In this document: in pieces, positions 41,698-45,308 of the stretch
Layout of the letters: every line of letters begins with the position of its first letter
Position numbering within the stretch: position 1 is the stretch's first letter
Source: Cyanobium sp. WAJ14-Wanaka
Lineage (GTDB): Bacteria; Cyanobacteriota; Cyanobacteriia; PCC-6307; Cyanobiaceae
Direction of reading: 5' to 3'
DNA length: 64,000 nucleotides
Assembly (NCBI RefSeq): GCF_024345375.1
Contig: NZ_JAGQAZ010000001.1
Span: forward strand, 744,001-808,000
The notes under the pieces: model-generated
What the model was told of the DNA's origin: nothing
Seen by the model: only the letters and a program-made list of their open reading frames with translations
The model's database searches: none
Made by a program: the position numbers and the translations under genes

Positions 41698-42438
41698 ATG
41701 GCGCTGCCTGCCGAGAGCCTGGGAGTGGAGCTGATCCCCGTACTCAACGACAACTACGTATTTCTGCTGAGCCGTGGGGGCCAGGCGGTGGTGGTGGATC
41801 CGGCCATTGCCGAACCGGTGCGGGCAATTCTTGAGGAGCGGGGCTTGGAATTGATCGCCATCCTCCAAACCCACCACCACTCAGACCACATCGGCGGCAC
41901 GGCGGGCCTGCTGCGTCGCTGGCCCAAGGCAGCAGTGTTTGCCTCCCATGCCGACCGCGACCGCATTCCCCTGCAGACCGAGGGGGTGGCCGGAGGAATG
42001 GGCTTCCAACTACTGGGGGAGGAGGTGGAAGTGATCGATGTGCCAGGCCATACCCGGGCCCACCTGGCCTATTGGTTACCCGAATCCGGCCACCTCTTCT
42101 GCGGCGACACCCTGTTTGCCGGCGGCTGCGGCCGCCTGTTTGAAGGCACGGCGCAGCAAATGCACAGCTCCCTGCAAAAACTGGGATCCCTACCTGGGGC
42201 CACCAAGGTGTGGTGCGCCCATGAGTACACGGCCTCCAACCTGGGCTGGGCGGCGGCGGAAGAACCCCAGAACCCAGCCATTGCCAAACGCCTAAACCAG
42301 GTGCTGGCGCTGCGCTCAGATGGCGTTGCCACCATCCCGAGCACAATTGACCTGGAGCAGGCAACCAATTTGTTTATGAGGGCAGAAGGCCCCGAGCAAC
42401 TGGCCGCCCTGCGCCAACGTAAGGACAACTGGCGTTAG
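41698..42438 (+). CDS. gloB: hydroxyacylglutathione hydrolase (glyoxalase II)
   Basis: A 246-residue metallo-beta-lactamase-fold enzyme. It hydrolyses S-lactoylglutathione. Metal ligands: THHHSDHIGG near residue 57, VPGHTRAHLAYW, GDTLFAGGCGR and CAHEYTASNL. The start ATG at 41698 gives the family's N-terminus (VELIPVLNDNYVFLL). The much longer open frame upstream only reads through hisG antisense. Confidence 0.93.
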   Translation: MALPAESLGVELIPVLNDNYVFLLSRGGQAVVVDPAIAEPVRAILEERGLELIAILQTHHHSDHIGGTAGLLRRWPKAAVFASHADRDRIPLQTEGVAGGMGFQLLGEEVEVIDVPGHTRAHLAYWLPESGHLFCGDTLFAGGCGRLFEGTAQQMHSSLQKLGSLPGATKVWCAHEYTASNLGWAAAEEPQNPAIAKRLNQVLALRSDGVATIPSTIDLEQATNLFMRAEGPEQLAALRQRKDNWR

Positions 42439-42506: not shown

Positions 42507-43637
42507 ATGCCTAACCCCGCAAAGAACTGGCTTGCCATCACGCGCCGCAGGGGGCTCTGGATCAGCGCCTTCGTAGTTGCCTTGGTGCTCCTGGTTTCAA
42601 ACCTTGACGGCTCCCTGGCCAGCGCGACTGAACAAACACTGCCGCAACGCTTCGAGCCCGCAAATACGGCAGAGCTGCTCAGCAAGGCAAATGCAATCCC
42701 GGTGAAAGTTGGAGCCTATATAGAGAACTACCATGATCTTTCACTTCAGGGGCGCCGCTTTGTGGCCGAGGGCTACTACTGGCTGGAATGGCCAGATTCC
42801 CTTGAAGAGATTCTTGACGCAAACGAGATAGCGCCAGGTGACATAGTTGAAATCACAAACCAAATCGACGAATGGGATTCGAAAATTCGCAGCGTCACAC
42901 CAGGTGCCCGAAAGCTCCCCAATGGCAACAACTACTACCAGGTTCGCTTCTCGGGAAATTTCTACATACCCGATCTAAACCTAAAGCTTTCTCCGTTTGA
43001 AAGCCTCACACTTCCCCTTATCATAGAAGTGCAAGACGACCAACTGGCCCTGCAAAATTCAAATGTAGTGCTTGTGGGAGACCAGGGCAAAGATCAGCTG
43101 CTCGGATCCTATTCAGAGATAGATGGCTATAAAATTTCTTCCACGGCCCTAGAGCCCATGGTCCATTCCTATGGCACCAGCTGGGGCCAGGACAAGGGAA
43201 ACCTGACCTATCCGGCAATTCAAGTGGTCACCAAGCTAAGAAGCTCCGGCTTTTCCAGCTTTCTTACCTGGGTATTTCCGCTCCTAATTGTGGTGGGCAT
43301 TGTGCTGCTGGCACCATCCGTAGCAGGTGAGCTTGGTGATATCCGCCTGGCGATACCCTCAACCGGAATGCTGACCCTAATCTTCCTTCAGCAAACCTAC
43401 GATTCAACCTTGCCGCCCCTTGATTACCTCACATTCCTAGATTGGCTTTATGCGGCTGGCTACCTAATTTCAATTGCCACTTTTCTGTTGTTTGTCTGGG
43501 GCACCAATGCTTACCAGGGCGCAGATGAGGATCAAAAGATCACTACCCTGACCCGGATCAATAAAGTGGATACAATTTTTCAGCTTGGTTCGGTAATCTC
43601 CATGGCTGTAGTTGCCTCCTTGGCCTGGAAGGCTTAA
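42507..43637 (+). CDS. probable pentameric ligand-gated ion channel homologue (Cys-loop superfamily, prokaryotic type)
   Basis: A 376-residue membrane protein. Residues 15-40 form a signal peptide. Residues 41-248 form a beta-rich extracellular region with YYWLEW and the loop SPFESLTLPLIIEV, which parallels the FPFDxQxLxL loop of pLGICs. Four helices follow: TM1 252-272 with a mid-helix Pro (WVFPLLIVVG), TM2 about 279-297, TM3 308-331, TM4 353-374. The TM2-TM3 link and TM3 (LPPLDYLTFLDWLYAAGYL) closely resemble bacterial channels ELIC and GLIC as I recall them. No Cys-loop cysteines, as in other bacterial members. Ligand and ion are unknown. Confidence 0.72.
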   Translation: MPNPAKNWLAITRRRGLWISAFVVALVLLVSNLDGSLASATEQTLPQRFEPANTAELLSKANAIPVKVGAYIENYHDLSLQGRRFVAEGYYWLEWPDSLEEILDANEIAPGDIVEITNQIDEWDSKIRSVTPGARKLPNGNNYYQVRFSGNFYIPDLNLKLSPFESLTLPLIIEVQDDQLALQNSNVVLVGDQGKDQLLGSYSEIDGYKISSTALEPMVHSYGTSWGQDKGNLTYPAIQVVTKLRSSGFSSFLTWVFPLLIVVGIVLLAPSVAGELGDIRLAIPSTGMLTLIFLQQTYDSTLPPLDYLTFLDWLYAAGYLISIATFLLFVWGTNAYQGADEDQKITTLTRINKVDTIFQLGSVISMAVVASLAWKA

Positions 43638-43667: not shown

Positions 43668-44066
43668 ATGGATTCCCACCCCCAGGAGGCCGTAACCACG
43701 GCCGGAGCACCAGCTCCCGTAGGGCCCTACAACCAGGCCGTAAAGGCCGGCGGGGTGCTCTATTGCTCCGGCCAAATTGCCCTCGATCCAGCTAGCGGCG
43801 CGATGGTGGGGGGCGGAGATGTGGAGGCAGAAACCAGGCAGGTACTGGCCAATCTCCAGGCCGTGCTCACTGCCGCTGGCTCCAGTGCGGCTCAGGTGGT
43901 GCGCACCACCGTGTTTCTGGCGGATCTTGCAGACTTCGCCAAGGTCAATGCCCTTTACGCCGAGATGTTCGGCGCTGGCATCGCCCCGGCGCGGGCCTGC
44001 GTGGAGGTGGCGGCACTGCCCAAGGGGGCTCGGGTCGAAATCGACTGCATTGCCCTACTGGGTTAG
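43668..44066 (+). CDS. ridA: RidA family enamine/imine deaminase
   Basis: A 132-residue protein that hydrolyses reactive 2-aminoacrylate-type enamines. Motifs: PVGPYNQAVKAGGVLYCSGQIALDP, and the catalytic-site region PARACVEVAALPKGARVEID with conserved Arg and Glu. It ends 86 bases upstream of the tRNA gene. A 7-bp hairpin (CGCCAGC/GCTGGCG, 44111-44128) lies between. Confidence 0.93.
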   Translation: MDSHPQEAVTTAGAPAPVGPYNQAVKAGGVLYCSGQIALDPASGAMVGGGDVEAETRQVLANLQAVLTAAGSSAAQVVRTTVFLADLADFAKVNALYAEMFGAGIAPARACVEVAALPKGARVEIDCIALLG

Positions 44067-44803: not shown

Positions 44804-45067
44804 ATGGACTTTGAGTTCGACCCGCTCAAGAGCAAAGCCAACCAGGCCAAGCACGGTATCGACTTCGTGGATGCACAAGCTCTATGGAACGATCCCGACC
44901 TGCTGGAAATACCAGCCCGCACAACTGATGAGCTGCGGTTTCTCGTCATTGCTCAGATCCATGGCAAGCACTGGTCAGCCGTGATCACCCATCGCAGCCA
45001 GGCCATCCGTCTCATTTCTGTCCGTTGCTCACGCCCAGAAGAGGTAAAGCTCTATGAACAGCTCTGA
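44804..45067 (+). CDS. brnT: BrnT family ribonuclease toxin
   Basis: An 87-residue toxin: FEFDPLKSKANQAKHGIDF at the start and HWSAVITHRSQAIRLISVRCSRPEE at the end, the usual BrnT frame with its conserved His, Arg and Glu positions. BrnT is a RelE-fold ribonuclease neutralised by BrnA, encoded here with a 14-base overlap. First intact gene of the accessory region. Confidence 0.88.
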   Translation: MDFEFDPLKSKANQAKHGIDFVDAQALWNDPDLLEIPARTTDELRFLVIAQIHGKHWSAVITHRSQAIRLISVRCSRPEEVKLYEQL

Positions 45068-45308
45068 ATTTGATCGTTGCTTCGATGCTGGTGACGCTGT
45101 TCTAGGCGCACTTGATCTCAACGCCGCGACGCGGCCCCGCCTGCAGCAGAAGCGCGTAAATGTGGATTTTCCAGTTTGGATGGTCGAACAGCTCGACCAT
45201 GAGGCCACCCGCCTTGGGGTGACACGGCAGTCAATCATCAAGGTCTGGCTGGCAGAACGACTGGAGCGACGCACTGAATCCAATCCGGGTATGGCCGCCC
45301 TCACCTGA
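45054..45308 (+). CDS. brnA: BrnA/CopG-type antitoxin
   Basis: An 84-residue antitoxin. The C-terminal half (KRVNVDFPVWMVEQLDHEATRLGVTRQSIIKVWLAERL) is a ribbon-helix-helix DNA-binding domain that would both bind BrnT and repress the operon. It overlaps the end of brnT by 14 bases. Confidence 0.83.
   Translation: MNSSEFDRCFDAGDAVLGALDLNAATRPRLQQKRVNVDFPVWMVEQLDHEATRLGVTRQSIIKVWLAERLERRTESNPGMAALT

Follow-up and report, generated by a model that had tools for sequence, protein, structure and literature searches.

What does a putative pentameric ligand-gated ion channel (pLGIC) do in a picocyanobacterium, and does the gene in question truly belong to that family? These questions are raised by an open reading frame in Cyanobium sp. 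WAJ14-Wanaka, found in a stretch of 64,000 nucleotides (contig NZ_JAGQAZ010000001.1, positions 744,001 to 808,000) the whole of which is referred to below as the window; coordinates are those of the window. The presence of pLGICs in cyanobacteria is already known, and the gene described here adds one member: Tasneem et al. 2004 (PMC549065) list them in Gloeobacter and Crocosphaera, and Jaiteh et al. 2016 (PMC4795631) in Synechococcus and Prochlorococcus, including one isolated Synechococcus sequence that groups with eukaryotic ones at low support. The latter set comes from the same organism group as the window, and no further treatment of cyanobacterial pLGICs was found among literature titles. 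As of 2016, according to PMC4795631, a biological role was known for no pLGIC of unicellular organisms; one published passage proposes that binding-protein-like N-terminal domains may let pLGICs serve chemotaxis or quorum sensing.

Results and discussion

The gene and the predicted structure of its product

The channel gene begins with ATG at 42507 on the forward strand and its stop codon ends at 43637, giving a product of 376 residues; the sequence-only reading had placed it with exact coordinates and strand. Its features are the following.

42507..43637, +, gene for the pLGIC subunit (376 aa), coordinates with the stop codon (open reading frame call, PDB sequence matches, profile, AlphaFold model, Foldseek, VIA)
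42507..42626, +, N-terminal hydrophobic segment, residues 1-40 (sequence; model helix 15-35 at lower pLDDT)
42627..43244, +, predicted extracellular (periplasmic) beta-sandwich domain, residues 41-246 (model strands; Foldseek and VIA matches)
42990..43013, +, Pro-loop (beta6-beta7) SPFESLTL, residues 162-169, with P163 invariant and E165 at the usual place of Asp (alignment; superfamily table of PMC4795631)
43248..43319, +, M1 helix, residues 248-271, with kink proline P258 (model and alignment)
43326..43403, +, M2 pore helix, residues 274-299 (model and alignment)
43434..43520, +, M3 helix, residues 310-338 (model)
43527..43631, +, M4 helix, residues 341-375 (model)

The traits that had been quoted as pLGIC-like are present, namely the SPFESLTL loop (162-169), the M1 proline P258 and LPPLDYLTFLDWLYAAGYL (residues 302-320). 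Judging by the look of the sequence, residues 1-40 are a probable signal peptide or anchor.

A Pfam scan of the window protein gave no match above cut-off, and in an NCBIfam scan the ligand-gated channel model remained far below its cut-off (E 0.018; 14.5 bits vs 500), so that the family call made by eye caught what both standard scans miss. Similarity to known pLGICs is nevertheless significant when sequences of solved structures are searched: the window protein alone found ELIC as its best PDB match (phmmer, E 5.9e-5, residues 137-345), and a 14-row profile of the window protein and 13 relatives matched ELIC at E 1.6e-19, with the ligand-binding and membrane domains both covered, and GLIC entries at E of about 3e-13 to 4e-11 among the best 60 of 219 matches. 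At E up to 1, the Pfam model Neur_chan_memb matched 4 of the 14 profile rows (best 2.7e-5), the window protein not being among these four.

The sequence-only reading had made its family call depend on whether a predicted structure lacks a beta sandwich followed by a four-helix bundle. An AlphaFold2 single-chain model of the window protein (mean pLDDT 91, pTM 0.82), computed from a 64-row alignment in which 80 frames had been thinned at 85% identity to 63 and the window protein added, has both. Strands lie within residues 48-246 and are followed by helices at 248-271, 274-299, 310-338 and 341-375; an N-terminal helix at 15-35 forms a stretch of lower confidence. Searched with this model, Foldseek returned pLGICs for all of the best 50 matches listed (E from 1e-18), and VIA-align 2, which only re-ranks the Foldseek matches, gave a Z of 22.9 to each of sTeLIC, GLIC and GluCl, in alignments of 284-293 residues at 2.9-3.5 A that span about 58-376; the rows are tied at less than 1 Z apart. 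A beta-sandwich ligand-binding domain preceding a four-helix membrane domain is thus found by the model, Foldseek and VIA alike. By its sequence matches and predicted fold, the window protein is a true pLGIC, a bacterial relative of the ion channels of nerve receptors, and the by-eye call of the family is borne out.

ELIC (from Erwinia/Dickeya) is the best sequence match over both domains and shares the fold (8vuw, Z 22.3), but it is 18-19% identical to the window protein, its M2 is without P at 4' and FLQQ, and its acid lies at -1' instead of the -2' of the window's subfamily. GLIC, from the cyanobacterium Gloeobacter, likewise has the same fold (e.g. 6f13, Z 22.9, 285 residues aligned, 3.0 A), but at about 16% identity it is a distant relative and not an orthologue. 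The fold is also that of sTeLIC and DeCLIC (14-16% identity), the second of which has, according to PMC9897478, an extra N-terminal domain that the window protein is without.

Signature residues were counted in an 87-row alignment (the window protein, 81 frames of at least 300 bits and five additional loci, the distant L019 being one of these; near-copies were kept). The Pro-loop proline (P163), the M1 proline (P258), the M2-M3 proline (P303) and, in M2, R at 0' (R280), P at 4' and L at 9' (L289) are each found in 87 of 87 rows, as is an acid at -2' (D in 75, E in 12). With prime numbering fixed by R280 as 0', the window protein has D278 at -2', P284 at 4', L289 at 9', F293 at 13' and Q296 at 16'. 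By analogy with GLIC, which has an acidic ring, the acid at -2' suggests cation selectivity. Conservation of FLQQ in M2 is partly by construction, TL[VI]FLQQxY having been the search pattern for loci. Uniqueness of P at 4' and FLQQ to this subfamily was considered and rejected, L196 and L019, which have canonical Pro-loops, sharing both (by eye). For comparison, Table 1 of PMC4795631 gives superfamily frequencies of 100% for the Pro-loop proline, 77% for the M1 proline, 88% for the M2-M3 proline, 79% for a basic residue at M2 0', 75% for Leu at 9' and, for the beta9 aromatic in the sandwich core, 71% W.

Genomic location and distribution

Two conserved genes border the slot in which the channel gene lies.

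41698..42438, +, gloB (hydroxyacylglutathione hydrolase), upstream neighbour and slot border, 68 bp before the channel gene (Pfam Lactamase_B and HAGH_C; synteny)
43668..44066, +, ridA, downstream neighbour and other slot border, 30 bp after the channel gene (Pfam Ribonuc_L-PSP; synteny)

The sequence-only reading took a position among core genes as a sign of a conserved role, an argument that fails on comparison: of the 16 genus genomes searched, its own genome counted, four have the channel between gloB and ridA, and the remaining 12 have a 91-bp gap without a gene (one genome), about 1.2 kb without a channel (ten) or a contig edge at this place (one). A conserved core role is rejected on the empty slot and the ten channel-free intervals among these 16. 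An antisense ORF resembling an ABC transporter ATPase occupies the slot in every such locus inspected, three from those ten (L114, L121, L125) and one from another genus (L128), an assignment confirmed by Pfam in L114 only. The channel is an accessory gene in a variable slot between conserved genes. Its close orthologues are under purifying selection, pairwise dN/dS among the three closest being about 0.11, 0.15 and 0.21 (dN 0.038-0.063, dS 0.30-0.36). Elsewhere in the window, positions 44804-45308 hold a BrnT toxin gene (Pfam E 5.2e-22) and, overlapping its end, a small ORF that resembles its BrnA antitoxin and gave no Pfam match at E 1e-4.

Channels of this kind, described in the sequence-only reading as sporadic in bacteria, are not rare in this lineage. 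A match was present in 18 of 60 near genomes (own genome counted), in 143 of 400 genomes of the same family at E 0.001, of which 24 are weak (E above 1e-20) and may be other pLGICs or chance, and in 99 of the 251 family genomes of good quality. The window's own genome carries a second pLGIC, 35% identical (G000:C1:107557-108510; L002, L174), which is flanked by an ORF resembling that of ribosomal protein S4 and by one of 1382 codons in the opposite orientation (neighbours named by eye). A species-genome scan yielded 109 relatives, the best 80 of which were taken as loci; these include Synechococcus, Cyanobium, Vulcanococcus, Aphanothece, Myxococcota, Luminiphilus, Halioglobus and Methylococcaceae, with near-copies among them and some contigs short (in L033, 233 bases precede the channel frame). 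Across the phylum, Neur_chan_memb matched 41 of 386 genomes at E 0.001, three of them above cut-off, many weak rows being frames of about 508-528 codons. No channel relative was found in viral contigs.

Broken relatives also occur: the match in G020 is split over two frames (L018/L028) and that in G011 has an internal stop (L027), which indicates that loss of the channel gene takes place in the subfamily; fragments or broken genes (L026-L028) were left out of one set of relatives. In L036, L049, L059 and L072, two different channel branches occupy the same place between a DnaJ gene and hemB (identified by Pfam in L036 and by eye in the others), which suggests an insertion site shared by the two branches. 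In L074 and L087, both of the deltaproteobacterial-type branch, the channel gene is followed by a small protein that is similar in the two loci (by eye).

Binding-protein genes beside related channels

Clustering of flanking ORFs and profile searches around the best 80 of the 109 relatives revealed that two types of binding-protein gene directly adjoin related channels. A UrtA-type gene stands beside the channel in 19 of the 80 loci, drawn from three phyla (Myxococcota, Gammaproteobacteria, and Synechococcus including WH7803): L040-L046, L048, L050-L052, L054, L055, L057, L065, L068, L071, L080 and L086. In 15 of these it precedes the channel gene on the same strand; in L065, L068 and L071 it is the downstream neighbour, and in L055 the two genes converge. 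At putative start codons, stop/start overlaps are possible in L050 (ATGA) and L048 (GTGA). Against the urea UrtA model, the four proteins scanned reached 437-558 bits, two of them exceeding its cut-off of 492.75, and the one partner compared with the PDB is nearest to urea-binding proteins of known structure, for example 7s6e (E 3.7e-152). A Peripla_BP_6-type gene is found in 17 of the 80 loci (among L088-L110), on the opposite strand just upstream of the channel and divergent from it (e.g. L102:889-2346), and Pfam Peripla_BP_6 was identified in all three partner proteins scanned, counting that of L015, which is outside the 80. In two further loci, of which one lies at the end of its contig, a weak Peripla_BP_6-type match alone occurs at that place, and a weak binding-protein match in L084 (24 bits) does not adjoin the channel. 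The two profiles had themselves been made from loci that they later matched, 8 for one and 3 for the other, and those loci match by construction.

In a quick tree of 69 rows, with a single support value and weak deeper forks, pairing is seen in 16 of 17 rows of the UrtA-type branch (support 99) and in 13 of 17 of the Peripla_BP_6-type branch (support 97), two of the rest being weak and two without partner; none of the 10 rows of the window's branch has either type, some flanks being short. The genome G001 has, besides its paired UrtA-type gene, another UrtA-like gene with 83% identity to it, which fits the paired gene being a dedicated copy. That adjacency is constant while gene order changes argues for a functional link between channel and binding protein in the sister branches.

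For the window gene itself the clue applies by kinship alone, binding-protein partners of these two types having been found only in sister branches. No UrtA-type or Peripla_BP_6-type gene adjoins either the window channel, whose neighbours are gloB and ridA, or the paralogue in the same genome, and among 21 loci of unpaired branches inspected by eye the neighbours included no shared binding protein. The window's genome gave no UrtA-like match; it has two Peripla_BP_6 genes, outside the window and beside permease-like and ATPase-like ORFs, an arrangement that by eye is an ABC transporter operon. An orphan PBP-I-type protein serving the window channel was accordingly considered and rejected, and this genome gives no direct reading of the ligand class for the window gene.

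The idea of a solute-binding protein working with a channel has a precedent in bacterial pLGICs with PBP-I fusions and with stand-alone PBP-II neighbours (PMC549065). Unlike those systems, the sister branches have stand-alone PBP-I-type proteins beside them, one kind being near UrtA, and the window gene has none. No description of a UrtA-type partner of a pLGIC was found in the open literature, covered mostly at title level and with most subscription papers outside.

Variation of the gating contact

In the superfamily, the Pro-loop proline is preceded by F (71%) or Y (25%) and followed two places later by D (93%) or E (3%), and a pre-M1 Arg (94%) pairs with this Asp (PMC4795631, Table 1). The window protein departs from the pattern of F/Y before the proline and D at P+2, having S162 and E165; given that the table provides frequencies and not a rule, these residues count as variation that does not exclude membership. 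Among the 87 rows, 21 have D and 16 have E at P+2, and at the pre-M1 place P-12 five have R and seven have K. The nearest pre-M1 Arg of the window protein, R245, lies 13 residues before the M1 proline, vs 12 in GLIC numbering (PMC4795631).

As a control, other cyanobacterial pLGICs were compared, five picked by open-frame length from 30 loci plus L019 (a seventh, L178, is without an open frame of more than 200 codons): [FY]PxD is present in all six, three of which carry the Arg at P-12 and the other three, as counted by eye, at P-13. The presence of Arg at P-13 in three channels with canonical Pro-loops means that E165 and R245 may be an equivalent pair, R245 corresponding to the pre-M1 Arg and the pair being a conservative variant. 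On the same control we do not adopt the view that the gating salt bridge is simply lost in the window protein. The Peripla_BP_6-paired branch has no acid at P+2 in any of 16 rows and G at P-13 in 16 of 16, these rows including L095, L098 and L106, where the partner is absent or only weakly matched; as judged from the aligned residues, it is the one branch in which the contact is clearly absent. In the UrtA-paired branch, D directly precedes the Pro-loop proline in 17 of 17 rows, the unpaired L047 included. With P+2 varying so widely in the subfamily, coupling may differ or some members may be non-conducting.

Proposed function and alternatives

We propose, with a probability of roughly 0.7, that the product of the window gene forms a homopentameric pLGIC of the cytoplasmic membrane, selective for cations and opened by a small solute in the periplasm. 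The computed parts of this explanation are homology to ELIC and GLIC over both domains, the predicted fold, purifying selection and the accessory location; five-subunit assembly, ligand, selectivity and gating are carried over from the family. Five subunits would assemble around a pore, a small periplasmic solute would bind at the sandwich domain, and the Pro-loop and M2-M3 loop would pass the motion on to M2, whereupon the pore, ringed by acids at -2' and narrowest at L9' and F13', would open to cations and depolarise the cell. In the paired sister branches the binding protein probably presents the ligand to the channel, and in the partner-less branch of the window the channel probably binds its ligand directly. 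Pairing with urea-type or Peripla_BP_6-type proteins would point to small nitrogenous solutes as ligands of the wider subfamily. A more far-reaching proposal, which we offer tentatively and at less than even odds, is that the subfamily consists of binding-protein-gated channels: in the sister branches a dedicated, stand-alone UrtA-type (urea/amide) or Peripla_BP_6-type protein would capture a nitrogenous solute and open the adjacent pLGIC, the Pro-loop/pre-M1 coupling having been rewired, and the window channel, being partner-less, would sense a related solute directly.

The nature of the stimulus is where the strongest competing account lies. The window channel might be gated by protons, as GLIC is by its PDB name, or by alkaline pH, as the PDB title states for sTeLIC, and not be opened by an organic ligand at all; both channels are among the best structural matches, and in the loci examined no binding-protein partner accompanies the window's branch. 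The structural rows, however, are less than 1 Z apart and so do not choose between channels, the best sequence match is ELIC, described in PMC3119659 as activated by primary amines, and the sister branches are tied to solute-binding proteins. We consider pH gating unlikely, though worth keeping in view.

Departures from the usual gating machinery allow a different doubt, that the protein is a pLGIC-fold sensor without a useful pore, which binds a solute and signals by contact, or else a decaying relic. The subfamily has a changed version of the superfamily gating contact, the pore could be narrow owing to F at 13' and P at 4', and the split or interrupted relatives in G020 (L018/L028) and G011 (L027) exist. 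Yet dN/dS of 0.11-0.21 among close orthologues speaks against this, many of the invariant columns lie in M2 (FLQQ having been in the search pattern), and P at 4' occurs by eye also in L019 and L196, pLGICs with canonical Pro-loops; we hold this account to be improbable. That the protein is not a pLGIC at all, and is some other membrane protein that combines a beta domain with four helices, could appeal to the want of an above-cut-off Pfam match, but the ELIC sequence and profile matches, the Foldseek and VIA results and the four profile rows matching Neur_chan_memb run against it, and with structure and profile matches refuting it we give it next to no weight. A solute-opened cation channel is the reading that we prefer for the window gene.

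Conclusions

The part of these results worth following is the partner pattern of the sister branches. The wider subfamily offers a testable clue in that its urea-type partners, found in three phyla, and its Peripla_BP_6-type partners let candidate ligands be named. If the subfamily is indeed gated by binding proteins, it would give prokaryotic pLGICs a concrete role, the sensing of dissolved organic nitrogen.
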